Part shown: one piece after another, positions 1,002 through 61,243 of the stretch
How the letters are laid out: every line of letters starts with the position of its first letter
How positions within the stretch are numbered: position 1 is the first letter of the stretch
Assembly (NCBI GenBank): GCA_947561395.2
Contig: OX387184.1
Span: forward strand, 34,772,766 to 34,836,765
Source: Buxus sempervirens
Lineage: Eukaryota > Streptophyta > Magnoliopsida > Buxales > Buxaceae
Direction: 5' to 3'
DNA: 64,000 nucleotides
Translations under genes and position numbers: made by a program
The notes under the pieces: generated by a model
Told to the model about the DNA's origin: nothing
Seen by the model: only the letters and a program-made list of their open reading frames with translations
Databases searched by the model: none

Positions 1002-1138
1002 CCGGTGTAGAGCAGCCAGAAACCCTGAGTAGGCCTGGTTGTCAATGCCGAAACCCAGGGAGTAGGCCGGCATTGGATGACGAAACCCTGAGTAGGCCGT
1101 CATTTCAGAGTTCCAAAACCTTGAGTAAGCCAGAACTG
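1002..1138 (+). repeat. Four-hairpin constant-loop array (T LTR)
   Basis: Four tandem inverted repeats share the loop AAACCCTGAGTAGGC with small variants. Stems are CAGCCAG/CTGGTTG, CAATGCCG/CGGCATTG, ATGACG/CGTCAT and AGTTC/GAACT. Related arrays occur at 3340-3480, 10659-10799, 17660-17780 and 60505-60635, and in reverse at 12735-12842, 39025-39150 and 57128-57265. Confidence 0.85.
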
Positions 1139-1268
1139 TGTACATGGAGGTGTGGATGTCGCCTTGGCATGTCAATTAACCAATTTAAGCAACTACATGA
1201 CATTGACCAATGTTGGTATTTGGCTTTATTTGACATGATATGTTTTATTCGTTGGTTTATTAGTACAA

Positions 1269-1356: not shown

Positions 1357-1683
1357 AGTATTTCAAAACCCTGAGTGATTTGAAATTATGATTTCATCGA
1401 TGTATGGTTACCTGGTTATACGTGATTTCATGGCTATATACGAGATTTGATGCCGATGTTATTAATTTGGGTTATATGATGGATTTATGCGTTTATATCG
1501 ATTGGATTATTGGAATGTTGTCGGATTACTCGAATTATACGTGTTATCGTCACCGTGTATTGTAAGACCCTGATTATTTTGTGGGGTTATCCATGGTTTA
1601 TTCATTCTGTTGATATACATAAACTGTGTTTATCAGGTGTTTAGTGTGGTTTGAGGGCTTAGCCCATGCTCGTATGTACAGGC

Positions 1684-1693
1684 GTTATATAGC
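1684..1693 (+). promoter_or_regulatory. Probable TATA box of the T element LTR
   Basis: TTATATAGCC lies about 125 bases into the LTR, with an AT-rich stretch after it. Its copy is at 9014 in the 3' LTR. A more distant T LTR has TATAAATAC at about 15823. Transcription would start shortly downstream, which puts the rest of the LTR in the leader. Inferred from sequence only. Confidence 0.5.
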
Positions 1694-2502
1694 CAATTTT
1701 TCGGAAAAATATTTATATTTATCGTATGATTTTTATTGTATGGTGTCTACGTATTTATTAATTTAATTAAGATGTCGATGCCGCGAGCATGTGAGGTTTT
1801 GGTGGGCGAGCGCGCATCGGATAAGAGAAAAAAAGGATATGCATACAGCGGCGTATTTCTCGTAGGGTAAAAATGGGTAAAAATTTCCGAAGGGGGAAAG
1901 TAGGGTTTGGGTTGTAGGGATACGCGTAAGTTACGGAGGAAAACTTCATTGGAGTTAGAGCTGTGGCGACTGCGGCGGAAATGGCAATTGGGGTTATTCT
2001 CAGGAAGAGAAAGAGTCTGAGGAACTACTAGAAGCTCATTCGAGTGGGATTTAGGCGGGTTTTCTCTCTCCTGAGCAGCGAACAGTTCGACTGACATTTA
2101 GGCTACCATTTCGTCTTCGCGCATTCGGGATCGCGATCGGCCGACTTCGAGGACGACTACCATTCTGGGATTATCGCGCACACGAGTGAGTGGCATTGTT
2201 TTAGCACCGAGGTTTTCGGATTTATTCGTATATGCATTGAATGAATATCATGGTATTGAATTGCATGAATGTTGGGGTTTTCTGGGAAACACAGTTACGA
2301 AGGGTTTTAGTTACGGAGGGTTTTCGTTTTGCACAGTGAAATTGGGGATAACTGGGAAGTCATTTAGATTAAATTCAAAATTGGTTTGGATGTATCCTGG
2401 GAATATTAGGAGGCCATATAAGTGGTCACAGACTGAAAAATTACAGCCAGAGTTGGATTTCCGGCATTAACAGAGACCTGGAAATCGAACTGGGTTACCG
2501 CC

Positions 2503-2765
2503 TAGCTACCGCCTACCTAGCGCCCACCTAGGAGGTGAGCGCTAAGAAAAGCAGACCTGGCGCCTAGCTAGCGCCCACCTCGCGCCTAGCTGGCGCCTAC
2601 CTCCAATTCTTGCGCTTATCTCGTGCTTTTCTCCCGCCCGTCTGGCGCTTAGCTAGCGCCTACTCATCCACGGGTGAGCGCAAGCTAAGATTTATCAAGG
2701 GGACCTACCGCCCACCTGGGGCCCACCTGGCGCCCACCTCGGGAAGTGAGCGCCCAGTGGTTTTT
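2503..2765 (+). repeat. GCGCC/CCTAGC palindrome-rich block in the 5' LTR
   Basis: Many short overlapping palindromic words of the type GCGCCTAGCTAGCGCC and GGTGAGCGC, far more GC-rich than the flanks. The matching block in the 3' LTR is 9823-10075. Similar blocks lie about 250-350 bases after the predicted donor in every other T or Z LTR here. Confidence 0.7.
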
Positions 2766-3081
2766 CATACAGAATCCTAAATTTCGGAAGAGCCAAGGGT
2801 GCTCTGGACAATAGGGGTTCTTCAACCATTCAACCAACAAATAGAATTCGACATTAGAGGCAATAAATATTACTGGGAAGAACAATGTAGATAGGTACTA
2901 GTTTTAGTACAAGCTTATGAGGTAGGTGTGGAGAAATATTTCGAGGATGTTCGGGATGTTCACATATTAGTGCTTTATTCTAGTCCTCTTGAAACATGCA
3001 TTGCTTGGTACCTTATTTGGTTTATCGAACCCTGTTTGATGGAAAGTTTGAATGAGGTGGTAATTATTGTTTATTTGATTA

Positions 3082-3201
3082 CTTGTGTGAGTTTCTGTTC
3101 TGGTTGGAACACTTGTGTGAATTTCTGTTCTGGTTGGAACACTTGTGTGAGTTTCTGTTCTGGTTGGAACACTTGCGTGAGTTGATGTTCTGGTTGGAAC
3201 C
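3082..3201 (+). repeat. 30-bp tandem repeat, four copies
   Basis: The unit is ACTTGTGTGAGTTTCTGTTC plus TGGTTGGAAC, repeated four times; the last copy is diverged. The same array is at about 10401-10520 in the 3' LTR. Repetitive short frames on both strands come from this unit and are not genes. Confidence 0.9.
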
Positions 3202-3339
3202 ACGGGTGATGTGTACTAATGCAGAGTTTTAAACAAGTAATTATCGGTTTGGGTTTAGCTTCCCATGGATCCTTGTTAAGCTTAGTAATGTGATGGTATG
3301 TGTTGGTTGGTGTAATTGCATGGCCACGTGTGTTGCCAC

Positions 3340-3480
3340 GACCAGTGTAGAGCAGCCAGATACCCTGAGTAGGCCTGGTTGTCAGTGCCGATACCCGGAG
3401 TAGGCCGGCACTGGATGACGATACCCTGAGTAGGCCGTCATTTCAGAGTTTCCGATACCCTGAGTAGGCCGGGAACTGTG
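3340..3480 (+). repeat. Four-hairpin constant-loop array (5' LTR of T element)
   Basis: The shared loop is ATACCCTGAGTAGGC. Stems are CAGCCAG/CTGGTTG, CAGTGCCG/CGGCACTG, ATGACG/CGTCAT and AGTTTCCG/CGGGAACT. Compared with the array at 1002-1138, the second stem has changed on both sides (A-T to G-C) and stays fully paired. The same array is at 10659-10799. Confidence 0.88.
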
Positions 3481-3655
3481 TACATGGAGGTGTGGAGTGT
3501 CTACTTGGCATGTAAATTAATCAATGTAACCATATGCATGGCATTGACCCGGTTTGAGTTGTTATCGAAATTTACGCGGTTATTATCATTGGTTATTTGT
3601 CGAAGCATGTCTTATAACTGTGTTAACTATTTTATGCATGCATGTGTCACTCGCT

Positions 3656-3671
3656 GGGATATTCGTATCTC
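3656..3671 (+). repeat. Short hairpin with a TTCG loop
   Basis: GGGATA-TTCG-TATCTC pairs over six positions with one G-T wobble. At 61002 the copy reads GAGATA-TTCG-TATCTC and pairs perfectly. It sits between the CATGCATG box and the T-rich CAG acceptor in every T LTR. UUCG is a known stable RNA tetraloop sequence, though its usual closing pair is different. Confidence 0.6.
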
Positions 3672-4016
3672 ATTCCCTCGTTGTTACTTGTTTTTCAGAT
3701 ACTCGTGGTGAGGTGCCTACAGGGGTAGATCCGGCTGATACATATAGGGAGGAGGATTATTACTACCGACCTTAGTCCAGCAGGTTACTCGGTCTTAAAC
3801 TGTTAAGTTGAATTTTGAGGATTGTAATAAGATAGTAAACTTGGAACCATTTGATGATTTCATAACTTGCCTGGATAGAAATGTTGAATTGTGCACTCTG
3901 ACATGATATAAAGGCGGGTGATTATCCAGCGATCACCATCATTGAGATCCTTAACTAACCCCTAGGAGACGTGTTATATCTTTAATGAAGAACACGGATC
4001 CGGGGCGTTACAGAGA

Positions 4017-4028
4017 TGGTATCAGAGA
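4017..4028 (+). other. Primer binding site (tRNA-iMet type)
   Basis: TGGTATCAGAGA starts four bases after the 5' LTR end. It matches the 3' end complement of plant initiator tRNA-Met at 11 of 12 positions. Confidence 0.9.
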
Positions 4029-4168
4029 CCTTAAAGCTGGAATTAGAGATTCCTAGGTAGTACGACCTTAGGAAACCCGGGGAAAATTACTGTGTGTACG
4101 CTAGGGTGAACCATGAGGTATAGAAGAGAGCTCTTAACTAATATGGTGTTTGTTGATTTCAGGAAATC

Positions 4169-7100
4169 ATGGCTGGCAGAGGCAGAGGCCGACCCCCGAG
4201 AGCTCAGGAGGAGGATATACCGCAGGAGCAGCCCCCTGCACCTCCGCGAGAAGCTCCACCTGCCGTTGAGGATATCTGGGCTGCAGTTGGCTCCCTTGCC
4301 AACCTCCTTGCCTTGGAGAGGGAGGAAAGGATGAGTCACACGGGAAATGGAAATGGGAATGGCCACAGGAATGGTCAGGGAGCAGATGTAGAGCAGCAGC
4401 GAAGAGGAGATGAGTTGTCCTTGAGGGACATTGATCAGTTTCGGAAGTTGACCGCGCCACCCTTCCATGGAGTCCCCGATCCCTTGGAGGCAGAGAGCTG
4501 GGTGGCCAGGGTTGAGCGTATGTTTGATACCATGGACTGCCCAGAGGACCGGAAGGTGCGATTAGCCACTTTCACACTAGAGGGCGAGGCCCAACACTGG
4601 TGGCAGTCTTTGAGGAGGCGGACAGCAGAGGGGATCCAGATGACATGGGATCAGTTTAGGCAGGTTTTCTACGAGCAGTATTTCTCAGCCGAGGTGAGGC
4701 TGCAGAAGGAGAGAGAGTTTATGGACGTCTCTCAGGGTTCATTGACCGTGGCACAGTATGAGTCCCGATTTGCGGTACTTTCTCGATTTGCGCACCACAT
4801 CGTCCACGATGAGCAGAGACGCACTCAGCACTTCGAGAGGGGGTTGAGGGCCGATATCAGGCGTATGGTCTCAGTACTGATGTGCACTAGGTATTCTGAC
4901 CTAGTCGGGAGAGCACTACGAGTTGAGAGGGAGATCCGCGATTCCGGACCAGAGCAGAGCAGAGGGAGAGCGCAGCCTAGCGTTCCAGAGCCACGAAGGA
5001 TGCCTGACAGGGACAAAAGGCCGAGGCTTGATACTGGAGGTTCTGGGTCTTATGGAGATAGAGACAGGAGGAGTTATGGAGGTTGCTTTAACTGTGGCAG
5101 ATTCCATATTCCGGGTCCCTGTGTAGCACCACCCGGAACCTGTTTCAGATGTGGTCAGCACGGTCACCGCGTGGCAGGATGCCCACACCCGGCCTCGTAC
5201 CAACTGCTCAAGACCGTTAACACAGTTCCGGGGGACAACCGGTCAGATACTGCTCCCCGATTCCAGTATCCCAGGCCTGCACCAGCATTACCGGCACCGC
5301 CGAGGTTTCAGGGTCAGAGCAGCGGCGGACGTCAGGGCAGGCAGGCACCTCAGGGGCCGCATGCACCACTTATGCACCCACAGCAGCAGCAGACGAGAGT
5401 GTATGCCGTGGCAGCCCATGAGGAGGAGGTAGAGAGGGGACTTACAGAGGAGGCTCGAGAGGAGGAGCCGAGCGCACCCCAGCTTGTCGGAGGTATTCTT
5501 TTTATACATGGTAGATCGGCCATATGTTTGTTTGATTCGGGTGCCTCTAGATCTTTTATTGCTCCACCTTGTTCGTTTCGTATTGGTTTGGTTCCTGCCA
5601 CACTTGAGTCTGAGTTGGTTGTACACACACCATTGGGGGAGACAACTAGAGTACAGACTGTGTTTAGAGACTGCATGATCCGACTAGGTTCCTTAGAGTT
5701 GCCAGGGGACTTAGCGGAGTTGAGCTTTGGGGAGTTTGATGTGATTTTGGGCATTGATTGGCTGTTTAGGCATCATGTGAATATAGATTGCCATCGGGGT
5801 ACTGTTATGGTATGTCGACCCGATCAGCCTATACACTGTTTCCGATGTGACGGACTAAGAGCACGGATCAGTTTGGTTGCTTCCATTGAAGTTGAGGAGG
5901 CAGAGTCTGGGGCACCTAGTCTCTCTAGTGTGCCTGTGGCATTAGAGTTTGAGGACCTTTTCCCTGAAGACTTGCCGGGCTTACCGCCATCTAGAGAGGT
6001 TGAGTTCAGTATACGACTCTTACCTGGTACGGCACCGGTGTCCAAGCCTCCATACCGAATGTCACAACCTGAGAACCAAGAAATGAAGAAGCAGTTAGAG
6101 GAACTGGAAGCAAAGGGCTTCATTAGGCCCAGTGTGTCACCATGGGGTGCACCGGTCCTGTTTGTTCAAAAGAAGGACGGGTCGATGCGGATGTGTATAG
6201 ATTACCGCCAGTTGAATCAGGTCACCATTAAGAATAAGTATCCTTTGCCTCGGATCGACGATTTGTTCGATCAATTGAGGGGAGCGTCATGGTTCTCTAA
6301 GATTGACCTCAGATCGGGTTACCATCAGTTGAGAGTAGCGCCGGATGATATAGATAAGACGGCCTTCCGCACCCGATATGGGCATTATGAGTTTTTGGTT
6401 ATGCCATTTGGGCTGACTAATGCCCCGGCTGTCTTCATGAATCTTATGAATCGTGTATTTCACCCTTACCTAGACAGTTTTGTGGTCGTGTTTATCGACG
6501 ATATTTTGGTGTATTCCCAGAGTAGAGAGGATCACATGCAGCACCTCAGGGCAGTGCTACAGACGTTGAGAGAGCACCGACTGTATGCAAAATTCAGTAA
6601 ATGTCAGTTCTGGTTGAGGGAGGTGAGCTTCTTAGGGCATGTGATTTCGGGGAATGGTATAGCAGTAGATCCAGCTAAAGTGCAGGCCGTTGCAGAGTGG
6701 CCTAGACCTTCATCTGTGACAGAGATTCGGAGTTTCTTGGGGATGGCTGGGTATTACAGGAGATTCATAGGAAATTTCTCACGAGTGGCATCACCTTTAT
6801 CCAATCTCACTAAAAAGGCAGTGAAGTTTGAATGGAGTGAGAAGTGTGAGACCAGTTTTCAGGAATTGAAGAGTAAACTGTCTACAGCTCCAGTTCTGAT
6901 TGTTCCATCAGTGAGCGAAGGATTTTCTATATATTGTGATGCTTCACGAGTGGGGCTGGGCTGTGTTTTGATGCAGCAGAGGCGAGTAGTAGCGTATGCT
7001 TCGAGGTTACTACGTTCTCATGAGAAGAATTATCCTACCCATGATCTGGAATTGGCAGCGATCGTGTTTGCACTCAAGTTATGGAGGCATTATCTGATGG

Positions 7101-8851
7101 GGGCTTCATTTGAGATATTCTCAGACCACAAAAGCTTGAGGTATATATTTTCTCAGAGGGAGTTGAATATGAGACAGAGGAGATGGATGGACCTCCTAAA
7201 GGACTATGATTTTACCCTTCATTACCATCCTGGTAAAGCTAATGTAGTGGCAGATGCTTTGAGCCGTAGGAGCGTTTCCCAAGAGGAGGTGGCCACATTA
7301 GCTAGCTTTATGGTTAGTCAGTGCACTCTAGTTGATACAGTGGTAGACTGGCCAGGAGAGTTCAGCACCCACGGTCATGGGTTGATCTTGTCACGAGTTC
7401 AGGTGGAGCCTGAGTTGATACAGCAGATTCGTGATAGGCAGTTGACTGATGTGGAGTTGACACGTACCCGAGAGTTAGTATCCAAGGGGGATGAAGCAGC
7501 TAGAGACTTTGAGATCAGGGATGGACTGCTAAAGTTTAAGGGTCGTATGTGTGTTCCAAATGACGAGGAGATCAAAGGAGTGATACTTAATGAGAGTCAC
7601 AGGTCTAAATATGCAGTTCACCCGGGGGGCACCAAGATGTATCGGAATTTGAAGGGGGTATATTGGTGGTCGGGTATGAAGAAAGACATTGCGGGGTTTG
7701 TAGCTAAGTGTCTCATATGTCAGCAAGTAAAAGCAGAACATCGTAGGCCTCCAGGATTGATGAGACCACTACCGGTGCCTGAGTGGAAATGGGAACATGT
7801 CACAATGGACTTTGTGAATGGGTTACCACCTACAGCTAAGAATCACAATGGCATATGGGTAATTGTCGATAGGTTGACCAAATCCGCTCATTTCTTGCCT
7901 TATTCGACTACTCAAAATCTAGCATCGTTGGTTGAATTATATACACGGGAGATAGTCAGGTTACATGGGGTCCCAGTGTCTATTGTGTCAGATAGGGATT
8001 CCCGGTTCACATCTCACTTTTGGCAATGCTTCCAAGAGGCCATGGGTACCCAGCTGAGTTTCAGTACTAGTTTCCACCCACAGACCGATGGACAGTCCGA
8101 AAGGACTATCCAGACTTTAGAAGATATGCTGAGGTGTTGTGTTTTGGATTGGGGTGGCGGCTGGAGTAAGTATTTGCATCTGGTGGAATTCGCCTACAAT
8201 AATAGCTATCAAGCTAGCATCCAGATGGCACCGTATGAGGCTTTGTATGGTAGAACATGCAGATCACCAGTATGTTGGGTTGAGATTGGGGAGAAACAGT
8301 ATTTTGGGCCAGAAATCATTCAAGACAGTATGGAAAAAGTAAAACTCATCAGACAGCGGATATTAACTGCACAAAGCCGTCAGAAAAGTTATGCAGATAA
8401 TAGACGCCGAGAATTGAGATTCGAAGTGGGAGATATGGTCTTTTTGAAAGTTTCACCATCCAAGGGAATTAGGAGATTTGGGAAGAAAGGAAAACTATCA
8501 CCCCGGTTTATTGGTCCATATGAGATAGTGAAGGAAATTAACCCAGCAGCATATCGGTTGGCTTTACCGGGCCACTTGGAAGGGGTGCATGACGTGTTTC
8601 ACATTTCCATGCTACGAAAGTACATATCTGATCCTAGTCATGTGATAGATTCCGAGCCTTTAGCGATTCGAGAGGATTTGTCGTATGAAGAAAAGCCAGT
8701 GCAGATTTTGGATCGACGTGAGCAGATCCTTCGCACCAAGATTATACCTTTAGTGAAAGTGTTGTGGCAAAACCATTCCACTGAGGAATGCACTTGGGAA
8801 AGCGAGGAAGAGATGAAGAAGAAGTATCCGGACTTAATTGTTCCTTCTTGA
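4169..8851 (+). CDS. Gag-Pol polyprotein, Tekay/Del-type (1560 aa, intact)
   Basis: One uninterrupted frame starts at [10 protein letters not shown], 157 bases after the LTR. Order: retrotransposon Gag domain about 85-250; CCHC zinc knuckle [14 protein letters not shown] at 325-338 (a degenerate CFNC motif lies just before); aspartic protease with D456-S-G-A; reverse transcriptase with FIDD at 775-778; RNase H with YCDAS around D924; integrase with HHCC (H1144, H1151, C1181, C1184) and catalytic D1214, D1275, E1311, the last two 35 residues apart; C-terminal chromodomain-like stretch from about 1500 ([14 protein letters not shown]). All catalytic residues I can check are present. It would make virus-like particles, copy RNA to DNA and integrate it. 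Gag and Pol are in one frame, so no frameshift is needed. Confidence 0.97.
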
Positions 8852-8890: not shown

Positions 8891-11331
8891 TGTAAGACCC
8901 TGATTATTTTGTGGGGTTATCCATGGTTTATTCATTCTGTTGATATACATAAACTGTGTTTATCAGGTGTTTAGTGTGGTTTGAGGGCTTAGCCCATGCT
9001 CGTATGTACAGGCGTTATATAGCCAATTTTTCGGAAAAATATTTATATTTATCGTATGATTTTTATTGTATGGTGTCTACGTATTTATTAATTTAATTAA
9101 GATGTCGATGCCGCGAGCATGTGAGGTTTTGGTGGGCGAGCGCGCATCGGATAAGAGAAAAAAAGGATATGCATCCAGCGGCGTATTTCTCGTAGGGTAA
9201 AAATGGGTAAAAATTTCCGAAGGGGGAAAGTAGGGTTTGGGTTGTAGGGATACGCGTAAGTTACGGAGGAAATCTTCATTGGAGTTAGAGCTATGGCGAC
9301 TGCGGCGGAAATGGCGATTGGGGTTATTCTCAGGAAGAGAAAGAGTCTGAGGAACTACTAGAAGCTCATTCGAGTGGGATTTAGGCGGGTTTTCTCTCTC
9401 CTGAGCAGCGAACAGTTCGACTGACATTTAGGCTACCATTTCGTCTTTGCGCATTCGGGATCGCGATCGGCCGACTTCGAGGACGACTACCATTCTGGGA
9501 TTATCGCGCACACGAGTGAGTGGCATTGTTTTACCACCGAGGTTTTCGGATTTATTCGTATATGCATTGAATGAATATCATGGTATTGAATTGCATGAAT
9601 GTTGGGGTTTTCTGGGAAACACAGTTACGAAGGGTTTTAGTTACGGAGGGTTTTCGTTTTGCACAGTGAAATTGGGGATAACTGGGAAGTCATTTAGATT
9701 AAATTCAAAATTGGTTTGGATGTATCCTGGGAATATTAGGAGGCCATATAAGTGGTCACAGACTGAAAAATTACAGCCAGAGTTGGATTTCCGGCATTAA
9801 CAGAGACCTGGAAATCGAACTGGGTTACCGCCTAGCTACCGCCTACCTAGCGCCCACCTAGGAGGTGAGCGCTAAGAAAAGCAGACCTGGCGCCTAGCTA
9901 GCGCCCACCTCGCGCCTAGCTGGCGCCTACCTCCAATTCTCGCGCTTATCTCGCGCTTTTCTCCCGCCCGTCTGGCGCTTAGCTAGCGCCTACTCATCCA
10001 CGGGTGAGCGCAAGCTAAGATTTATCAAGGGGACCTACCGCCCACCTGGCGCCCACCTCGGGAAGTGAGCGCCCAGTGGTTTTTCATACAGAATCCTAAA
10101 TTTCGGAAGAGCCAAGGGTGCTCTGGACAATAGGGGTTCTTCAACCATTCAACCAACAAATAGAATTCGACATTAGAGGCAATAAATATTACTGGGAAGA
10201 ACAATGTAGATAGGTACTAGTTTTAGTACAAGCTTATGAGGTAGGTGTGGAGAAATATTTCGAGGATGTTCGGGATGTTCACATATTAGTGCTTTATTCT
10301 AGTCCTCTTGAAACATGCATTGCTTGGTACCTTATTTGGTTTATCGAACCCTGTTTGATGGAAAGTTTGAATGAGGTGGTAATTATTGTTTATTTGATTA
10401 CTTGTGTGAGTTTCTGTTCTGGTTGGAACACTTGTGTGAATTTCTGTTCTGGTTGGAACACTTGTGTGAGTTTCTGTTCTGGTTGGAACACTTGCGTGAG
10501 TTGATGTTCTGGTTGGAACCACGGGTGATGTGTACTAATGCAGAGTTTTAAACAATTAATTATCGGTTTGGGTTTAGCTTCCCATGGATCCTTGTTAAGC
10601 TTAGTAATGTGATGGTACGTGTTGGTTGGTGTAATTGCATGGCCACGTGTGTTGCCACGACCAGTGTAGAGCAGCCAGATACCCTGAGTAGGCCTGGTTG
10701 TCAGTGCCGATACCCGGAGTAGGCCGGCACTGGATGACGATACCCTGAGTAGGCCGTCATTTCAGAGTTTCCGATACCCTGAGTAGGCCGGGAACTGTGT
10801 ACATGGAGGTGTGGAGTGTCTACTTGGCATGTAAATTAATCAATGTAACCATATGCATGGCATTGACCCGGTTTGAGTTGTTATCGAAATTTACGCGGTT
10901 ATTATCATTGGTTATTTGTCGAAGCATGTCTTATAACTGTGTTAACTATTTTATGCATGCATGTGTCACTCGCTAGGATATTCGTATCTCATTCCCTCGT
11001 TGTTACTTGTTTTTCAGATACTCGTGGTGAGGTGCCTACAGGGGTAGATCCGGCTGATACATATAGGGAGGAGGATTATTACTACCGACCTTAGTCCAGC
11101 AGGTTACTCGGTCTTAAACTGTTAAGTTGAATTTTGAGGATTGTAATAAGATAGTAAACTTGGAACCATTTGATGATTTCATAACTTGCCTGGATAGAAA
11201 TGTTGAATTGTGCACTCTGACATGATATAAAGGCGGGTGATTATCCAGCGATCACCATCATTGAGATCCTTAACTAACCCCTAGGAGACGTGTTATATCT
11301 TTAATGAAGAACACGGATCCGGGGCGTTACA
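8891..11331 (+). repeat. 3' LTR of the complete T element (2441 bp)
   Basis: It matches the 5' LTR apart from about a dozen substitutions and an 11-bp deletion in the GCGCC block. The predicted donor is at 9516 and the acceptor ends at 11017. The hairpin array is at 10659-10799 and is identical to the 5' LTR copy in its stems. It is followed by the target duplication TGTAT. Confidence 0.95.
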
Positions 11332-11336
11332 TGTAT

Positions 11337-12124: not shown

Positions 12125-14387
12125 TGTAACGCCCCGAATCCGAGTTACTTAGGAAAACCCATAACTCGTCTCCAAAGGTTATTATGTAACGCAGGACCGC
12201 ACTATCAGAGTGAAGGAAAACATGAATATAATAATAACTATAAAACAGAGTGCGCTAAAATAACCCCAAATTAATAAACTCACATGACCAAGTAAACTAC
12301 CCGCAAGTATCGGGCTCTCCGGGCGTATCTAAGAAACAAACAAAAGCAAAGGAATGAGATACGAATATCTCAGCGAGCAACACATACATGCACAAATACA
12401 ATTTTTCTAGTTGTAAAATATGGATCGAATAATTTCACGAGTAACGATGGCAATAACTCGATTAATCCGACTAAACTCACAGTAATTCATTAGACACAAT
12501 GATATAGCTAATGAAAATCCATATGTATTTAAATCTGAATACAGTTGTCAACAAATCCAAATAATCGCAAAAAGAACCAATATCCTTATAACCACATCTC
12601 GAGAAAACCAAATTTCTGCAACAATCCAATAATATGTCTCATGCTAAATAAAACAAAACCCAACATTTGGTCAATGTCATGTAGTTGTTTAGATTGGTCA
12701 ATCAACACGCCAGAGCGACATCCACACCTCCATGTACACAGTTCCGGCCTACTCAGGGTATCCGATACTCTGAAATGACGACCTACTTAGGGTTTCGGCA
12801 TTGACAACCAGGCCTACTCAGGGTTTATGGCTGCTCTACACCGGATGTGGCAACACTCCATGGCCATACCATTATCCCAATAAAAAAAATACATCACATT
12901 ACTAAGCTTAAACTCTGGATCTAGGACTAGCTAAACCAAAATAGAAAACCATTGCATAAAACTCAGTATTTGCACAACAAATAAACCCACACCGATTACC
13001 ATCATGTGTATCCCAATACACTCATCACATGTCATTCCAGCCAGAATAGCAACTCATGCAATTTCAGTGGGTATCCCAACCCCAAAACAACAAACCTCAT
13101 TAGCAGTAAAATTCTTTTACTCACACAAGAAAATTTACAATACTATTCAGCCCTTTGATATCAATCAAATCCAGATTAAACAGATTCATAATCAGATAAC
13201 AAATGTAATACATAAAGAAAAACTAACACATTATCTTATAGTGTCATGAACACCCCATGACCTACTCAAACTCCTTCAATTTCCACTTCAGAAACCTATA
13301 TAAATACCAAGAACTTGATTTAAGACTCCCCCAATTGTTTTGAATAGATATACTATTTCTAATATCCTAATCTAGTCTTTGGCTAAGAGGTTGAAGTCTC
13401 AAAGTATCAAAAATTGGCCTAGATTGGTCAAAAACAACTTTCGGAAATTTCTATTGGGTGCGCTGACCTTTGGCGCTTGGCGCGAGGTCGGCGTGGACTC
13501 GGCGCATACGACATCAGCATCTCGCGCGGACTAAAATGACTTGGCGTGAGACAAGCGTGAACTAGGCGAGACTAAAATGTACTTCGCGCACGATTAGAGC
13601 GAACTTAGCGTGAACTCGGCGAGAAGACATAACATTCCTTGTGCTAACTCTAACACTTGGCGCTAGGTAGGCGCCAAGTCAGCGGACATTGCCTCCGACT
13701 CGCAACTCTCTGTTAATCTCAGAACTCCATGACTGGCCGTATTTTCGACCTCTGTAACCACTCATCTATACTTCTACCATTACCAAAACACTGTTAAACA
13801 TGTTTCGAATTCAATCCAAACAACTTTATGATCACGACTCTAATCCATCAAATACTCACGCTCGATAAATAACTTATTCAGAAAAACATGTTTCCGACTA
13901 ATCTCAGAGATCAAAACCCACCATAAAATCAAAACGATGCTACTCACCGAATAGAGGATTTTTCTTCTAGCTTCCAATCCTTTTGATAGTCTCCTCTAGA
14001 GATCAAAGCTTATCGGCCGACGCACTCAGGTTCCAGGCAGCGGCCAATCTAAATACCTATGAGTTCGGCCTCTGGCTTCTTTTCCCCAACCTCCGAAATT
14101 TTTAACTTAGCAATCTATTTATAAACTTCACAAACCCTAAACCTAATTTATTTCTGACCTTAACCTTCAAAATTCCCTATCTACCCCTCCCTAAAGTTGC
14201 GGTTAATATAAAATATTTATTTGTTAAGTTCCTAATCACTACAAATTCTAAATTTCGCACTCATTTTCTTAATAAAATTCTAATTATTTCTTTGCCACCT
14301 AATGACCCAAATCTCCACACAAATTAATTTAATTAAATCTACTAATTAATCCTTTAATTTAATTCCTACTAAAACTGGGGTTTTACA
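12125..14387 (-). mobile_element. Solo T-type LTR, reverse, TSD AGGGG
   Basis: Read on the minus strand it runs from TGTAAAACCCCAG (at 14387) to GATTCGGGGCGTTACA (at 12125), 2263 bp, flanked by AGGGG at 12120-12124 and 14388-14392. It contains a GCGCC block (about 13450-13690), a donor-like GTGAGTAGCATCG near 13940 and a degraded hairpin array at 12735-12842. No internal region follows, so it is a solo LTR left by LTR-LTR recombination. Confidence 0.92.
12735..12842 (-). repeat. Degraded constant-loop hairpin array in the solo LTR
   Basis: Three loop copies (CCTACTCAGGGT type on the plus strand) remain. The second and third hairpins seem fused by a deletion, and stems are only partly paired. 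Confidence 0.65.
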
Positions 14388-15507: not shown

Positions 15508-18351
15508 TGTAAAATCCCGAATTTTAATAACATAAAAATATTTTAGATTTTGTTATTAATTAGTTTAATTAATGAAAAATTTTAATAATTGAGAAGAGGA
15601 AATTAATTTGAGCTAAATTTAAAATCTAAATAGGATGAATTATTTAAAATGGGAAAATTTTATTTATTTGGGGAAGATGCTGGTGTAGGTTATCTGTGGA
15701 GTGGCAGGTACCTGATCGCACACTTAAATGAGTTGAATAGGTAGGAATCCTTGCGTGGGCTAGCATGCACCAAATCAAGTGGTTTTAAAACTCGTCGAGC
15801 GGCAAAGTGTATTTAAAGTAAGTATAAATACTTAGCGTATTTAGACTCTAGGGTTTTCATTTTCACATACTTTTGGAGTTCGAAGGATTTCGGCTGGGAG
15901 TCCTAGGGCGTTCGGGAGAAGAGCAATATTGTGTGTTCCAGTCAATCGAAGGGCTTTCATTGTGTGTTCCAGTCGATCGAAGGGTTTTCATCGATTAGAG
16001 GGTGTTCAGAAAAATTTCCGTGCAACCAAAGAAGGTTTTGGGCGACGATTGATGTTTCACTTCCAGTTCCCTGAGTTGCAATGCAAGGGTTTGAGTGTGC
16101 AAGAGGTGAGTAGCATCGTTTTAAAACTGGGTTTTCGTATTGATTCGTGAGTTTAATCTAAATGCATGTGTTTTTTGGAATGTGTTCTTTGGAAGAAGAC
16201 AGTCCGAGTGTGGGTTTTCTGATTGAATGAGATAAATAAAAATGTGGTTAGAATAATTTCAAAAGTGTTTTAAATGTCTTCTGGGGATATTAGGAGACTA
16301 GGAAAATTGTTACAGAGAGAAAAATTCCGGCCAGTCGTGTAGATCTGGAAATAACAGAGAGTGGAAATTCCAGGGTACCATCCGCCGAGTTGGCGCTATC
16401 TAGTGCCAACTACATGTAGTCGGCGCAAAGGATCTTTCCCCTATCCGCCGAGCTCACGCGAACTTGTTTTCTATCCGCCCATCTCGCACTAGTTTCGCGC
16501 TAACCTTGCGCCTAGTCCATTTTTAGTAAGCGCGAGGTGTATTTGTTTTATTGAGTTCTCACGCCTACCTCGTGCCAACCTTCCTGATAAAAATAGCGCG
16601 AGGTGTATTTGTTTTATTGAGTTCTCGCGCCTACCTCGTGCCAACCTTCCTGATAAAAATAGCCCCCTTAATTACATGAAAGACATTTAAGTAAATGTCA
16701 TGTGTATTTATTACTCCATTTACTTAAGTCTTTACATGTAAATAAGGTTTTACCCCCCATTTGGAACCAATAAAAATACTTCCAAGGTCTAATTCCCAGC
16801 CAATAAAAAGTCAACTTTCTAGTTCATGCCTAAATCTCGGTTTTTATCAAAAAGCCCGGTTTGGGTTTAATACCCAGATGAGTGATTCAGGAGCCCATAA
16901 AATTCTATGAGATGTGTTTACCCTTCAATAGCCTACAACCAAAATTTGAGCCCGAAACTCCTTGTATATTTATCTAGAAAAATTATATACCAAAAGTCAA
17001 TGTTTTTAACCAGACTTAGAATATTTTGAGGTCCGAAACTTTTTGTCTCAGAATTGATTGCTTTTTGGTATGGTGACCTTATAGGGGATCCTAAGACTAT
17101 TCTACTCATCCAAAATGTGTTTACAGGGTTTTATAACATTCTTTTGATTGATTTGGATTATGAAAGCGAAATTGAGAATCTAGGAGCTGTTTTGCTAGTT
17201 TATGTTTAATCGAAGTTTGGATGCTGTAGTTGAATCTGTATAATGTGTTTACTTCTGAAAGTCAGTTTTGAAACCATATTTGTTTTACTGAAATTTCATC
17301 TACACTATTATGCTAGTTCACCTTTGAATGCACGGTGCACTTCAGGAATGATTTACTTGAATATTGTTTTATATTGGTGACCGGTTTAGGATTATCTCTT
17401 ATTCTGTTCTGGGGAAATTATTTGAAAATTTACTTTGAGGACTCCATGAGGAAGTAAGCTGGTCCTGAGTGACCCATGTTATGCACTTGAACATGTTGAT
17501 CTATATGTCAGTTTTACATGATGGAAAACACCTTGGGTTGAATTGCTAGTTTTATACTTACTGCTGGTTTAACTTGTCCTGGATCCAGAGTCTAAGCTTA
17601 GTAATGTGATGTTATTGTTTCGTTGGTGTAATTGCATGGCCTTGAGTGTTGCTACTGCCGGTGTAGAGTAGCCAGAAACCCTGAGTATGCCTGGTTGTCA
17701 ATGTAGAAACACGGGGAGTAGGCCTGCATTGGATGACGCAGTCATTTCAATATCCAAAACCCTGAGTAGGCCGGATATACATTTGGAGGCGTGGGCATGG
17801 TTATGAGAAGACTTTGTGTTATATGACATTGGTATATCTGGAATTATATCTTGAGATACGAAATTATGGTTATTCGCTATGTTGTTATCAGTTAATCATT
17901 ATTTTATCGATATCTTCGGGATTGGAAACGGATTGTTATTGCTTGATTTACCTGATGGTTTTTCCGCACTGATATGAATTGGATTATTGAAGTTTAGTCG
18001 GATTATTCGGAATATGCGTGTTATCATCATTGTATATGGTTTATAACCGTGGCATGTTTTAGAACTGAAATAAATGTATTTGTGCATGCATGTGCTACTC
18101 ACTGGGATATTCGTATCTCATTCCGTATTGTTTTGTTTTGTTTTCAGCTGCTCCTGGAGAGGACAATACTTGCGGGTAGTTACTTGGTCATGTGAGTTTA
18201 TTTCCGTTTGGGATTATTCTAGCGCACTCTGTTATGTAGTTATTGTTATATTCATGTTTTCCTTCACTCTGATATTGCAGTCCTGTGTTACATGCTAACC
18301 TCTGGAGACGTGTTACGGTATAACTACGTAACTCGGATTCAGGGTGTTACA
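15508..18351 (+). repeat. Second LTR unit of the chimeric T locus (2844 bp)
   Basis: It starts TGTAAAATCCCG and has TATAAATAC at about 15823, a predicted leader donor GAG|GTGAGTAGC at 16106, a GCGCC block at 16378-16665 and a hairpin array at 17660-17780. The GGGATA-TTCG-TATCTC hairpin and a TTTTCAG acceptor ending 18147 follow. Within the GCGCC block an approximately 60-bp segment is tandemly duplicated (about 16540-16660). No gene is seen in this 2.8 kb. Confidence 0.8.
17660..17780 (+). repeat. Hairpin array variant with one loop deleted
   Basis: The first, second and fourth hairpins keep the constant loop. The second stem is CAATGTAG/CTGCATTG (one wobble) and the fourth is ATATCC/GGATAT, a different but paired stem. 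In the third the loop is gone and ATGAC-GCA-GTCAT remains. Confidence 0.75.
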
Positions 18352-38414: not shown

Positions 38415-40602
38415 TGTAATGCCCCGGATCCGTGTTGTTCAATAAAGATATAACATGTCTCACGAGTGTTAGGTATGGACCCACAACTTTTGTGATCGCT
38501 GGATAATCACCCGAGTTATACCATATCATAGTGCACAAACAATTTATCAACTAGGAAGCTCATTAGAAAGTATTTGATTATAGTCAAATCGATCCACCAT
38601 CAATCCACTTTATTACATTTTCCAAACCAACAAGGCAATATTCCCAATCCAAAATGAACATACTAGTCTATGGGATGTAGTAATAATCCTCCTCCCTATA
38701 AGTGTCTGCCAGATCTACCGCAGTAGGCGCCTCACCACGAGTATCTGAAAACAAAACAAAAACAAACGGGATGAGATACGAGTATCCCAGCGAGTAGCAT
38801 ATGCATGCAGAAATAGTTATCATCAGTTATAAATATGCCACGATGGATAACAAGCACAATTAAGTCAATAGAGACAATCCTGAAGTTTGCAATCCAAAAC
38901 CCCAATAATAGTTTCCAACAAAGACCGACAACAATACCGAGTAATCATCAAATGGTCAATGCATGCCTATTGCTTTAATTGGTTAATTGACATGCCAAGG
39001 AGACATCCACACCTCCATGTATACAGTTCTGGCCTACTCAGGGTTTCGGAACTCTAAAATGACGGCCTACTCAAGGTTTCGTCATCCAATGCCGGCCTAC
39101 TCCCCGGGTTTCGGCATTGACAACCAGGCCTACTCAGGGTTTCTGGCTGCTCTACACCGGTCGTGGCAACACACAAGGCCATGCAATTACACCAATAAAC
39201 AATACCATCACATTACTAAGCTTTTTCAAGGATCCAGGTTAAGCTAAACCAAAAATAGAATACCAAATACATAACTCACCACTGGCAACACAAATAAACC
39301 AACCTTTGTCCTCATCATGTATTACACAATTTAAACTCATCACAGGTCACTCCGGACCAGAAATAGTAACTCATGAAACTGTAGAAGATATTCTAACCCA
39401 AAACACAAACCCAAATCGGTAGTATAATCCTTTGCTATTTTTCATAAATCCACTCAGCACTTGGCAATCCGCCAAAACCCTGGTTAATCAAGTTCACAAA
39501 CTAGAAATTAACTATAAAACATGGATAAACAAAAACACTAACTCATGGTATCAAGAATAGCAAATTAGACTACCAACAGCCCTTCAAACTTTACCTTTGG
39601 GAACTCATAAATCCTACCAATAATTGACCGAATAATCTCCGAAGGTTTTGAGCACTTTAAAATACTTCTAGAATCCTAATCTAGCTTCTAGCTAAGAGGT
39701 TTAGGCATTAAAGTACAAGAAATGAGCTCAAATTGGTCAACCGCACTTCACCAGGAAAATTGGTGGGTGCGCTGACCTCGAGCCAGTAGGCCCCAGGTTA
39801 GCGCCAGGTCGGTGAACCCGGAAATCTCTATGCGCTAAGCTGCCGCTGAGTGGAACAGTTGGCGGCAACCCCAGCGGATGCTCCCCTGTTTTCTCGGTAA
39901 CATTTTTACTCACTGTTAACTCAATCTAGCTATGACTGTCTTGATTTCAAGCCTCCACAACAGTTGTTCTATGCTTCTACCACCTTCAATAGAAGTTTAA
40001 ACTCAAATCGAAATTAATCCTAACACATTTCATGTTACGCCTCGAAAATCTCTTCGAAAAACCAAATCCGAATCTAACAATTTCCACAATAATGCATTTC
40101 AGCTATTCTCAAGTAATCAAATCCAATACACGGAGTAAAACGATGCTACTCACCTGATATATGCTCAAATCCCTGCAACTACAACTCCTGGAACCAAAAG
40201 TTCAGATATCAATTTCAGCCCAATTTCTTCTCTGATCAGAAAATGTTTTCTACAGATAAATGGCACTCCGATTAGATCTAATTCGTATTTCGATCCTCCT
40301 ATGATTCCTTTACGAAATATTGATCCACTCATACTAACCTAAACACTCGCTGATCAGCAAGAAGGTCAGACGAAACCTCAGAAGTCGTTAAACTGAGCAG
40401 CTTCACTTAGCCTTCGATTCAGTTCTTCCTTCACTTCACACTCCGATCGGCAGCAAAAACCACACTTCTGCTCTTATCCAATAGCCCTAGAAATCCAGCC
40501 GCAATTTCCTCAAGCTCAAGGTGTGAGAAAACCTAAGCACCGAAATTCACTAAGTATTTATACTCGCCCTATTTTTGTGCTCAACCAAATAAACTCATGG
40601 TT
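38415..40602 (-). mobile_element. T-type LTR, reverse, truncated at its 5' side
   Basis: The plus-strand start TGTAATGCCCCGGATCCGTG is the reverse complement of the complete T element's LTR end, with CG changed to TG. It contains a hairpin array (39025-39150), a GCGCC-type block (39765-39885), a donor CAG|GTGAGTAGCATCG near 40150, and a TATA-like AGTATAAATAC at about 40555. The LTR start is missing; B-type sequence begins at about 40603. The right boundary is approximate. Confidence 0.75.
39025..39150 (-). repeat. Four-hairpin constant-loop array, reverse T LTR
   Basis: All four stems pair: AGTTC/GAACT, ATGACG/CGTCAT, CAATGCCG/CGGCATTG and CAACCAG/CTGGCTG. Loops are of the GCCTACTCAGGGTTT type. 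Confidence 0.85.
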
Positions 40603-52375: not shown

Positions 52376-52760
52376 AAATTCAAAGGCTTTCAGAGGCCCA
52401 GGGATATTTTTTTGAAAAAGATCTGAAATTCAAAGGCTTTCAGAGGCCTAGGGATATTTTTTTTAAAAAAGTTCTGAAATTCAAAGGCTTTTCGAGACCC
52501 AGGGATAATTTTGAAAACAATCTGAAATTCCAAGGCTTCCAGAGGCCCATGGATATTTTTAAAAAGGTCTGAAATTCAAAGGCTTTCAGAGGCCCAGGGA
52601 TATTTTTAAAAAGGCCTGAAATTCAAAGGCTTTCAGAGGCCCAAAGATTTTTAAAAAAAGATATGAAATTCAAAGGCTTTTAGAGGCCCAGGGATATTTT
52701 TTTGAAAAAGATCTGAAATTCAAAGGCTTTCAGAGGCCTAGGGATATTTTTTTATTCAAG
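52371..52760 (-). repeat. About 50-bp tandem repeat, about 8 copies, next to the 74-bp array
   Basis: The unit is TGAAATTCAAAGGCTTTCAG plus AGGCCCAGGGATATTTTT with A/T spacers of varying length. It takes over directly where the 74-bp array ends. Confidence 0.9.
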
Positions 52761-56541: not shown

Positions 56542-58690
56542 TGTAATGCCCCGGATCCGTGTTATTCAATAAAGATATAACATGTCTCACGGAGGTTATG
56601 TATGGGCCCACAATTCAATTACATTCATCAAAGTGCGGAATATTGATTCATTTATTTAAGCACGGGAAATCGACTCAACATGAATATTCTCAATTCTAAA
56701 CATTTTGAATACCAATCTAAAGATTATTCTATTACAAATTTAACGGATCAAATTTCTCAGGAAAACCTACTAAGGCTATGGAAGATTATAATCCTCCTCT
56801 CTATAGTAATTCGCCGGCTCTACCCCGATAGTCGTATCCTCACCAAGAGTATCTGAAAACAAAACAAAAACAACGTAATGAGATACGAATATCCCAGCAA
56901 GTAGCACATGCATGTAGAAAACAATTTGCTTTAATTCTAAAACATGCCACGAATAATATTCGATTACAAGTAACCAATAGAAATATCATCAAGTTGGAAA
57001 TTCATAAGTTCTCAATAACCAGTAGCACAAATGTCCAACCAAATAATAAACCATTCACACTGTGGCCAATGTCATGTAGTTCACTTCTATTGTGTAATTT
57101 GCATACCAAAGTGACATCCAAGCCTCCTTGTATACAGTCTGGTCAAAATTGACTCGGTACTCTGAAATGACTGCCTACCCAAGAACTTTGTCATCCAATG
57201 TCGGCTTACTCCGGGTTTTGACATTGACAACCCGGCCTACCAAGGATACGGACTGCTCTACACTGGTCATGGCAACACCCATGGATATGCAATTACCCCA
57301 ATAAAGCCAACTCATTACATTACTAAACTTAAGACATGGATCCAAGGCAAGCTAGACCAATAGCTTGTAATCAAATCAATAAGTGTTCCAAAAGTTCAAT
57401 TAAACCATGGATCAACCATGACCCAAAACCATTCCATCATGGAGTATCACAAATTTATATCTTTCGATGTAAATGACTTTCTCAAACCAGTTCATATATT
57501 CAATCATTCATATGAAATAAAACCACATTTCCTTTTTGAATAAAGTGACTCATCACAAACCAAAACTCATGCAAGTACTTCATCAATCCGATGTAAAACA
57601 AATAATTTAAAACCAAATCACAATTCAACTTCTCAATTATGACCAAAAGCATGTTCTCACCGACTGAAACACTTACAAGTAATGTAGGATAAGAGATACC
57701 TATGTAGAATTCCTACAACTGGATTTGATAACCTAAAATCCTCTTTAAATTCCCAAAAGTGTACTAACTCATAGATAAAGTGGACAATTAATTAATATAA
57801 ACTCCTTAATATAATTGGCTTTCAAAGGCACCTTAAGAATGATCTTATAGAAGTGTTACAAGTGGTGGAATCAACAAAATCTTGTCCTATAAGGATTTGG
57901 GTATAAAAGTGTCTCAAAAATCTAATTTAGGAAAATGTGCAAAAACTCTTCATTTTATTGAATTTTAATCTAGTTCCTGTGCAAGCACTTTCTAATTACC
58001 TAAATCTTACTTGTACATAAGTTGGATTTGGTTAAAAGTAATTCCATGGTCAAACTCATCTCCAATTGGAAAATCTAGGTTTACTAGTATGGTTGCTCAA
58101 ACTAAGGCTGGCAATGGGTCGGATATATATCCGAATCCGACCCGAATCCGATCCGAAATTACCGAATTTGGATATAGGATTTAGATCCACAGTTCGGATA
58201 CGGATCTCGAATTTCGGATCCGAATTTTTTCGGATTCGGATTCAGATATACATATATCCGATCCGAACCTAAAACATACTTATAATATATATAAACTTAG
58301 CCCAGACCATGGTTCAACCATAAATTAAAAGGGTTAAATCATCATTTGATCATTAGACACTTGGATTTGTGTTAAAATTTACAATTAATTTTACTTTAAT
58401 TGTTAAAATTGTTTTTTAAAGTTTCAGGTTCAAACAGGCTTGAATTCGGATTTCTAATTGAATTCGGATTTTGGTTTTGAATTCGGATTTAGGATCGGAT
58501 ATCTGATCGAATTCAGATTTTGGATATTCATTGAATTTCGAATTCGGATTTAAGTATTAAAGATCCGTCAGATATCAGATCGAATTTGGATATCGGTCAA
58601 TTTTTTTTGGATCGGATTCGGATCTTAGCAAATCCATATCATATTCGACCGATTGCCACCCCTAACTCGAACCGGCGCTCGAGCCTATTT
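56542..58690 (-). mobile_element. T-type LTR, reverse, old and truncated
   Basis: It starts TGTAATGCCCCGGATCCGTG, as at 38415. A diverged hairpin array is at 57128-57265, where the second stem is CAATGTC/GACATTG. A hAT-like MITE interrupts it at 58103-58664. The right end is unclear; the B-type LTR seems to begin shortly after 58672. No gene is seen. Confidence 0.65.
58103..58664. mobile_element. hAT-like MITE (562 bp) rich in CGGATCCGAAT words
   Basis: Terminal inverted repeats are TAAGGCTGGCAATGGGTCGG on the left and TAGGGGTGGCAATCGGTCGA as the complement of the right end (about 19 of 23 match). Flanking 8-bp duplications GCTCAAAC (58095-58102) and ACTCGAAC (58665-58672) match at 6 of 8; both differences are transitions. 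The 8-bp length and TAGGGGTGGCAA-type ends fit hAT elements. The interior is a mosaic of TCGGAT/ATCCGA inverted repeats. There is no transposase. Confidence 0.78.
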
Positions 58691-58910: not shown

Positions 58911-61243
58911 TGTAAAACCCCAGTTTTGAGTAGAAAAAAAATATATTAATAAAATATAAATATATAGACACATGGATTAATCAGTAGGTTTAATCAAAAA
59001 TTTATGTAAAGCTGGAGATTGTGGTCAATAGTTGGCAAAGAAAATAAGTAGAATGCTATTAAGTAACTAAGTGCGAACTTAAAAAAATTTTGTAGTGAAT
59101 AGGAACTTAGCAAATAAATAATCCTGGTAACCTCAACTTTAATGAGGGGTAGATAGGGAATCCCGAGGGTTAATTTAACGCCGGGGATAAATTAGGTTAA
59201 ACCTTGCAACGTCTATAAATAGATTTCTAATGTAAAAATTTTCGGAGGTTAGGGAAAAGTTGCTGCCAGAAATTAGGGCGTCGACCGAAAAGCTGGATCT
59301 CTAGAGGAGTACATCAAAAAAGGTTGGAAGCTAGAAGAAGATCCTTAATACCGGTGAGTAGCATCGTTTTAAAACTGGGTTTTCATATTGAATCGTGAGA
59401 TTAGTCTGAATGCATATGTTTTCTGTGTTTTCGGGAAGAAGACAGTCCGAGTGTGGGTTTTCTCTCTAAGATTGAATGAGATAAATAAAAATGTGGTTAG
59501 AATAATTTCGAAAGTGTTTTAAATGTCTTCTGAGGATATTAGGAGAATAAAGAAATTGTTGCAGAGAGAAAAAGTTCGGCCAGAGGTGTAGATCTAGAAA
59601 TAACAGGGTCGGAAATACATGTTAGTATCCGCCGAGTTGGCGCTAACTAGCGCCAACTGGAGGTAGTGGGCGCAAGGAATTGATCTCTATCCGCCGAGCT
59701 CACGCTTAGTTCGCGCCTAGCTCACGCGGACTTAACTTATACCGGCTCTTTCCGCGCGAAGCGTGCGCGAAGTTCGCGCCTACCTCATGCTCATCTCGCG
59801 CCCACTCGATATTAAGTAAGCACATACTATATTTTTACCCACGACATATCCGCCGACCTCGCGCCTAGCGCAGGAGGTCAGCGCATGGTCCTAAAATTTG
59901 CCGAATGTAGAGTTTTGACCCAATTAAGCTGGTTTTGATGATTCTGAGGGTTTGAGCACTTGAGTAATGATTTGTTTAGGACTTTAGAAACATTATTCCC
60001 TATTAAATTTTCTTTGAGAATAATAAGTGGAAATTCTAGAAATTTTTAGAAGCATCCAAGATTATTTCGACAGGGTTAATGATAGATGATCTCATTGTAC
60101 CTAATCCTAGGAGTACCTGATTTAGGTTCCTGTTATTACATACTATAGTTGACTGCGAATTTATTTCATCTGATTTTTTTACCTGATTGCAAGTTTCTGA
60201 AATGTATTGTAAAGAATTCTTTTGGTGTGAGTAAAGGGTTTTATTACAAATGAACATGTGTTGTGAATTGTGAGTAACTGCTGGAGATACATGAGATGCT
60301 GTTTTGGTCCAGAGGGACGTGTGGCGAACTGGTTGAGTTACACATGATGTTGAACGTGTTGTTTTGCTTTGAAGTCAGAGTTGTGTTTTACGTTGGTTTA
60401 CTGTTTTGGTTTAGCTTGTCCTGGATCCAAAGTCTAGGCTTAGTAATGTGATGCCTTTGTTTTATTGGGTAATGGCATGGCCATAGAGTGTTGCCACGAC
60501 CGGTGTAGAGCAGCCAGAAACCCTGAGTAGGCCTGGTTGTCAATGTCGAAACCCTGAGTAGGCCAGCATTGGATGACGAAACCCTGAGTAGGCCGTCATT
60601 TCAGAGTATCCGAAACCCTGAGTAGGTCGGAACTGTGTACATGGAGGTGTGGAGGTCGCTCTGGCATGTTAATTAACCAATCAAATAATTACATAACATT
60701 GACCATTGTGGGATTTTTGTTTATCTAGTTTTAGATATATTATTGGATTATAGTAGAATTTGGTTTTTCTAGGAGCGTGGATATAATGATATTGTTTCTT
60801 TGAAACCAATTGGAATTTTGTTGACAAAGGTATTCCGATTTTAAATACGTACAGATTTTCATTATCTATATCCTTGTGTTAAATAAATTACTAGGGGTTT
60901 TCTTCGGCTCCATCGAGTTATTGCCTGCTTACTCGTGTTATTATTCGACTCATAATGTACAACTGGTAAATTGTATTTGTGCATGCATGTGCTGCTCACT
61001 GAGATATTCGTATCTCATTCTGTTGTTTCTGTTTTGTTTTTCAGATACATATGGAGAGCCGATACTTGCGGGTTGTTTATTGGGCCATGTGAGTTATTAC
61101 TTTGGGGTTATTGTAGCGCACTCTGTTTCGTAGTAATATTGAGTTCATATTTTCTTTACTCTGGTAGTGCGATCCTGCTATTAATAATAACCTCTGGAGA
61201 CGAGTTACGGGTTTTCTTTGTGACTCAGATTTGGGGTGTTACA
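58911..61243 (+). mobile_element. Solo T-type LTR (2333 bp), TSD ATAAA
   Basis: It starts TGTAAAACCCCAG and ends TTGGGGTGTTACA, flanked by ATAAA at 58906-58910 and 61244-61248. It has a predicted donor CCG|GTGAGTAGCATCG at 59354, a GCGCC block at 59630-59890, a hairpin array at 60505-60635, a perfect GAGATA-TTCG-TATCTC hairpin at about 61000, and an acceptor GTTTTTCAG ending 61044. Confidence 0.93.
60505..60635 (+). repeat. Four-hairpin constant-loop array, solo T LTR
   Basis: The loops are AAACCCTGAGTAGG in all four units. Stems include ATGACG/CGTCAT, CAATG/CATTG with weaker inner pairs, and AGTATCCGA/TCGGAACT with one bulge. Confidence 0.82.

Follow-up and report, generated by a model that had tools for sequence, protein, structure and literature searches.

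A constant-loop, variable-stem hairpin array with covarying stems in a chromovirus LTR of Buxus sempervirens

HIV-1 SL1–4 and the gammaretroviral double hairpin are sets of several packaging hairpins that share a short loop motif and are bound by zinc-knuckle Gag. Among plant LTR elements, the palindromes in the LTRs of Sireviruses (maize Opie/Prem-2 and others) are described, in the part of PMC2829016 used here, as repeats of a single dyad-symmetric palindrome lying 5′ of the TATA box, and BARE, in the part of PMC3735527 used here, as an element with separate translated and packaged RNA pools. The array described below, four neighbouring hairpins with one loop and differing stems, bears on the question of how plant LTR retrotransposons choose RNA for packaging or export. 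A literature search found no paper describing such an array; it took in mostly titles and abstracts, with subscription journals and preprints little covered, so that absence from print is not implied. Matches in the literature to the letters of the loop were judged to be chance from titles and abstracts.

The stretch of DNA analysed, hereafter the window, is 64 kb long (G000:C4:34772766-34836765, in a 676.5-Mb genome of 247 contigs) and holds one intact LTR element, of the Ty3 type with a chromodomain. By self-BLAST its 5′ LTR of 2,452 bp (1561..4012, + strand) is 99.1% identical to the 3′ LTR (8891..11331, +); the termini were read, and the target site duplication TGTAT stands at 1556-1560 and 11332-11336. 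A primer binding site, TGGTATCAGAG (4017..4027, +), which we take to be of the initiator-Met tRNA type, follows the 5′ LTR, and a gag-pol ORF of 1,564 codons (4157..8851, +) carries Retrotrans_gag, RVP, RVT_1, integrase and chromodomain. In three pieces of this ORF, Pfam families for gag, protease, reverse transcriptase, RNase H, integrase and chromodomain were all matched (PF03732, PF08284, PF00078, PF17917, PF17921 and PF00385), the rve match staying under its cut-off at 28.8 of 32.6 bits, and a CCHC knuckle was found in gag. With these domains in one element and a pair of LTRs, the element is a Ty3/gypsy chromovirus. LTRs of the Tekay-clade Bongo measure 2.6-3.0 kb in five of the six listed in the part of PMC3605345 used here; the 2.45 kb found here is alike, but no proof of membership in that clade. 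Elsewhere in the window, at 51583-52752, a 74-bp tandem repeat of 10.5 copies is followed by a 47-bp repeat of 8 copies.

The array of the 5′ LTR spans 128 nt (3353..3480, +; LTR position 1793-1920), as delimited by sequence, fold and profile. Its four hairpins, hereafter H1–H4, each carry a 15-nt loop of the form RNACCC(T/G)GAGTAGGC, H2 loops being sometimes 17 nt. H1 (3353..3381, +) has a 7-bp stem (3353-3359/3375-3381) around loop 3360-3374, H2 (3383..3413, +) an 8-bp stem (3383-3390/3406-3413) around loop 3391-3405, H3 (3414..3442, +) a 7-bp stem (3414-3420/3436-3442) around loop 3421-3435, and H4 (3444..3480, +) a stem of about 10 bp (3444-3454/3470-3480) around loop 3455-3469. A coding role for the array was rejected, by reading, on the varying unit length (15- and 17-nt H2 loops) together with stops in the frames, and an Rfam covariance-model search of window 2800-4200 gave no match at E 1 or better.

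A sequence-only reading of the window had claimed eight arrays, and all eight are present, with refined limits (array proper 3353-3480). Besides the array of the 5′ LTR and that of the 3′ LTR (10672..10799, +), which belong to a single element with LTRs 99.1% identical and are not independent, they lie at 1013..1140 (+), in an LTR fragment, and at 12737..12833 (−, copy 12735), 17670..17776 (+, copy 17660), 39022..39149 (−), 57133..57255 (−, copy 57128) and 60511..60637 (+, copy 60505). Its description of four hairpins per copy fails in three places: copy 12735 has lost one unit, copy 17660 lacks the H3 loop, and the divergent copy 57128 has an altered H4. The H2 stems that it quoted are found as CAATGCCG/CGGCATTG, CAGTGCCG/CGGCACTG and, in copy 57128, CAATGTC/GACATTG; H2 of copy 60505, CAATGTCG/CAGCATTG, is imperfectly paired, with one U·G and one C·A. 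The H4 stem ATATCC/GGATAT, read there as a change within H4, does exist, in copy 17660, but marks a ‘second array’ type and is no simple H4 variant; this type makes up 5 of the 64 arrays sampled (see below), and L017_4870 has the same H4 with H3 intact. At five loci (L002, L017, L039, L040 and L065) two arrays lie about 300 bp apart, the second being without the H3 loop in four of the five and having the different H4 stem, of the ATATCC/GGATAT type, in all five.

Allowing up to two mismatches, we count 24 places of the 14-nt loop core in the window, where shuffles predict 0.29; the exact 15-mer loop has 11,578 places in the genome, its reversed control none, and a flank-anchored pattern independent of the loop finds 3,488 arrays genome-wide. 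The sample comprises 64 arrays from 357 kb of DNA, in which the stretches of contig C1 were chosen by exact loops and the window and C4 stretches were not. Once the twin in the 3′ LTR, two loci that are duplicates and a further identical row are set aside, 60 distinct arrays remain; 15 of these had hairpins that were fused, replaced or impossible to align, and such hairpins were treated as gaps. Unit loss or fusion affects 7 of the 64, apparently through recombination between repeats. L008, L009 and L010, spaced about 61 kb from one another on contig C1, have the same array, apparently a segmental duplication. In L033, at 150-600, tandem repeats of about 117 bp carry the same loop on a fifth stem, ATTCCG/CGGAAT, beside small GGTC-CTGAGT-GACC units. 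A C(T/G)GAGT hexaloop hairpin was rejected as a general module, with a perfect 5-bp stem at 1 of 392 sites; shorter such units are seen by eye in L033.

Among the 60 distinct arrays, 8 of 32 pairs take at least two Watson–Crick forms, and they fall in all four hairpins (positions numbered along the array): 6/24 in H1; 33/59, 36/56 and 37/55 in H2; 67/85 and 68/84 in H3; and 92/128 and 101/119 in H4. Pair 6/24 is altered on both sides in three distinct arrays, and the second form at each variable pair of H3 and H4 comes from one array only. The pair cells comprise 1,386 Watson–Crick, 155 G·U, 33 A·C and 43 other; 101 of the 155 G·U cells fall at two constant G·U pairs, 3/27 and 62/90, where G·T is retained in 49 of 53 and 52 of 52 arrays. 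The inner H4 pairs 97/123 and 98/122 mostly fail to hold. At H2 pair 37/55, A–T stands in 18 of 54 arrays of the sample, and genome-wide, with the stem otherwise fixed, C–G numbers 1,291 versus 23 for A·G and C·T together. Reading by eye, which took in 91 of 100 listed flank-anchored places of 80 nt each and made no full tally, brought further paired changes at C1:19428568 (35/57 A–T) and C1:19446531 (37/55 T–A) and a counterexample at C1:18781593, with C·T at 37/55.

These paired changes exceed what trees, random partners and slid partners produce, in line with the covarying, selected base pairing that the sequence-only reading had claimed, the contribution of H3 and H4 coming through single arrays. 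Paired cells, with gaps imputed, number 1,821, more than in any of 300 tree-based nulls (mean 1,610, maximum 1,805). Two-sided changes from one paired state to another occur on six branches of the core tree, where a null with re-placed changes has a mean of 1.99 and reaches six in 2 of 300; the array tree of 60 has four, matched by 2 of 1,000 random partner sets, and a first set of 38 arrays had five, where random partners gave at most four in 300. Slid partners yield only 0–1 paired-to-paired double changes; two-sided changes of any kind, in the first set, number 7 at slide −2 versus 6 observed. Single-side changes on the array tree of 60 kept pairing 51 times and broke it 40 times, a near-even division to be expected if most of them are post-insertion decay. 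Compensatory changes thus go beyond the phylogenetic null in several stems, and a selected RNA secondary structure is supported.

The array lies in the most conserved block of the LTR (3247..3549, +; LTR 1687-1989), defined by an alignment of ten LTRs with which BLAST coverage agrees. Mean pairwise identity in the block is 0.73–0.95 per 30 columns, and elsewhere mostly 0.2–0.6 and at most 0.75. Just upstream of it, both LTRs of the intact element have a 30-bp tandem repeat of four copies (3081-3200 and 10400-10519). A second, moderately conserved block at window 2363-2753 (LTR 803-1193) is GC-rich, with repeated GCGCC(C/T)ACCT units, and nowhere else in the LTR is the sense-strand folding z as low (−3.1 and −4.3 here). 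TATA-type boxes occur within the first 175 nt of seven of the ten LTRs, reading TATAAATA in L014 and L002 and followed by TTAGGTTTT in L014, L002 and L016; L011 and L004 have none in that stretch, and the first of L017 is at 351. The window’s own LTR has TATATA at 126, a context resembling TTAGGTTTT follows only some 200 nt further on, and its TATA box is ambiguous. Where such boxes are seen, the array is about 1.4–1.7 kb downstream, so that from this putative promoter it would be transcribed as 5′ leader. Its earlier placement in a transcribed leader agrees with these boxes and with intron-like signals round the array, both predicted from sequence.

The predicted intron, about 1.5 kb long (2186..3698, +), runs from GTGAGT (donor context CACGA/GTGAGT) to TTTTTCAG and contains the array. 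Donor-like GGTGAGT(A/G)GCA, sought with up to two mismatches and the GT required, lies about 1.0–1.6 kb upstream of 27 of the 32 arrays with enough flank, counted by hand from the list as a raw number that includes twins and duplicates; acceptor-like TTTTCAG lies 216–408 nt downstream of 25 of 41 with enough flank, likewise a raw count. The array is probably inside this candidate leader intron, in which case only unspliced RNA would keep it. A hairpin, TGGGATA-TTCG-TATCTCA (3655..3672, +), immediately precedes the candidate 3′ splice site, and another, GTGAT-TATCCAGCG-ATCAC (3918..3936, +), reads ATGAT/ATCAT in another LTR group, one paired change. The 78 nt from the last acceptor base (3698..3775, +) form a possible coding exon reading DTRGEVPTGVDPADTYREEDYYYRP and a stop; in one LTR group the stretch reads DTRGE..YREEDYYYxP and a stop, an acidic, tyrosine-rich type of C-terminus, and in another it stops early. 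As to spliced, intronless LTR copies, a T-rich tract precedes 21 of 21 matches to the exon-2 start in the sampled loci. In the first group pairwise differences by codon position are 129/122/240, but the per-site count, 18/21/18, has no third-position excess; joined to exon 2, the exon-1 frame has stops in some families, by reading. The frame suggests that the stretch may be coding.

Taking the observed pairing, loop constancy and conservation together with the predicted promoter and intron, we infer a role and a partner: the array would be a cis-acting structured element in the sense RNA of the retrotransposon, most likely a packaging mark bound by Gag, a proposal to which we give a little less than an even chance. 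Four close hairpins would display the same loop and offer a single RNA-binding partner several sites to bind, the sequence of the stems being free provided that pairing holds; lying in a leader intron, the array would be kept only by unspliced, genome-length RNA. The most likely partner would be the CCHC Gag that the element itself encodes, which would mark genomic RNA for packaging, with an export factor as runner-up. A constant loop, free paired stems, four units and a candidate intron fit an RNA that binds protein multivalently and labels unspliced transcripts. More tentatively, such a constant-loop, exchangeable-stem signal in a predicted leader intron may let chromovirus Gag, or an export factor, tell genomic from spliced RNA, a possible retroviral-style genome selection.

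The same position in a candidate intron, ahead of the acceptor-like site by 216–408 nt wherever one is present (25 arrays), would also suit an export or splicing-control element, whose loops recruit a host factor so that intron-containing RNA exits the nucleus unspliced. The MPMV CTE likewise repeats identical 16-nt loops in intron-retaining RNA (PMC4377836, in the part used here), but plants are reported to use TREX and not the TAP/NXF1 receptor (PMC12786077, in the part used here), and we regard this role as unlikely.

A packaging mark or an export element would act as RNA, and the sense RNA is favoured only moderately as the paired molecule. The one-step intermediates from C–G number, genome-wide, 221 U·G versus 71 C·A at pair 36/56 and 148 versus 121 at pair 37/55. 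They were counted in mirror-image contexts, for which neutral decay should by argument give about 1:1; the genome copies behind these counts are not independent, and an amplified U·G subfamily probably contributes. Tree events in the stems and inner mini-stems run G·U 67 to A·C 38 (binomial p 0.006), and on a second tree 61 to 37 (p 0.02). The core control, which leaves out stem columns yet includes mini-stem columns, gives 222:215, with Fisher’s test of stems against control at 0.017 and 0.044; unpaired columns within the array have G·U-type versus A·C-type changes at 22:20 and, on one tree, at 22:16, the same lean. Sense asymmetry on internal branches was rejected as proof, being 13:3 on one tree and 6:5 on the core tree, which shows no internal/tip difference in G·U:A·C (p 0.75). 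Folding of the array’s sense strand barely surpasses that of dinucleotide shuffles, with a median z of −1.03 sense and −1.84 antisense, and the sense strand is more stable than the antisense in only 6 of 50 arrays. Mean pair probabilities are 0.47–0.62 sense and 0.23–0.74 antisense, and the LTR windows that cover the array have z of −1.03 and −0.51, several windows elsewhere in the LTR folding more strongly.

That the antisense strand folds equally well or better is what a DNA-level element would lead one to expect, with a protein bound at the constant 15-mer (as a promoter, insulator or telobox-like site) and the dyad stems acting as DNA, as a cruciform or paired half-sites. The loop’s AAACCCTGA is one base off AAACCCTAA, which we take to be the telobox. 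Palindromic repeats also stand upstream of the TATA box in Sirevirus LTRs (PMC2829016, in the part used here). The array, however, lies downstream of the putative promoter, the four different stems have no half-site in common on reading the alignment, the telobox match is lost in the 37 of 209 loops that have T for A, and U·G exceeds C·A, 221:71, at pair 36/56; we find action as DNA quite improbable. A simple telobox array is further weakened by ATACCC loop variants.

The loop itself has a nearly invariant GAGTA core, with 202–209 of 209 loops agreeing at each of the five positions, a statistic that shares the sample bias of C1 stretches chosen by exact loops. A mini-stem within the loop, C5–G14, C6–G13 and T7–A12, is plausible, with two T6–A13 double changes, but position 7 of H2 is G in 40 of 54. 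For dimerisation, which the sequence-only reading had offered as one possible role beside packaging and Gag binding, reading of the sequence shows no long palindrome of the kissing-dimer kind in the loop. Within the roughly 9.8 kb of the element, only two distinct 9-nt matches offer the loop a long-range partner, near chance by estimate, and a scan of IMG/VR for the loop gave single matches in 19 stretches, which we attribute to chance. At loop position 2 the four loops change together, with 35 T–T pairs versus a shuffled mean of 8.7 and maximum of 19 (2,000 shuffles), so that there must be short-tract conversion between loops or else selection that favours like loops.

Such concerted shifts, the likely loop–loop recombination in the 7 of 64 arrays that show unit loss or fusion, and the small number of independent double changes would all accord with pairing kept up free of selection, by palindrome correction or template switching between arms and descent from few master copies. 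Correction should erase a fixed wobble, yet G·T is kept at 3/27 and 62/90, positions that may be unselected; the excess of U·G over C·A at 36/56 and the two-sided change of pair 6/24 in three distinct arrays also speak against this origin, which we hold to be very unlikely. With stems of only 7–11 bp, short for Dicer substrates, the array is scarcely credible as a host-silencing substrate whose hairpins feed small RNAs in the manner proposed for Sirevirus palindromes, which would also leave the element’s preservation of pairing unexplained. A small-RNA role is proposed for Sirevirus LTRs in the part of PMC10760457 used here.

The covariation suggests that the non-coding LTR sequence of an abundant class of plant DNA is moulded by selection and not by descent alone. 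A Gag-bound packaging mark, if true, would amount to a covariation-supported genome-selection signal in thousands of plant LTRs, and the array is a short, specific RNA suited to testing for Gag or host-factor binding. As in Sireviruses, inverted-repeat units are repeated inside plant LTRs, but here the stems differ between units, the loop is constant and the putative promoter precedes the array. BARE, in the part of PMC3735527 used here, is a Copia element with a 104-nt intron in gag and no such array described, whereas the present element is Ty3 with a predicted leader intron. The MPMV CTE is alike in its repeated identical loops of about 16 nt in RNA kept unspliced (PMC4377836, in the part used here), and differs in having two internal loops in one hairpin of a 3′ UTR, where the present array has four terminal loops in a candidate 5′ leader intron. 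Compared with retroviral packaging signals, which lie downstream of a splice donor, the array has 15-nt loops and four units, belongs to a plant chromovirus and follows a donor that is only predicted; like them, it consists of neighbouring hairpins with G-rich loops, here in a putative leader.
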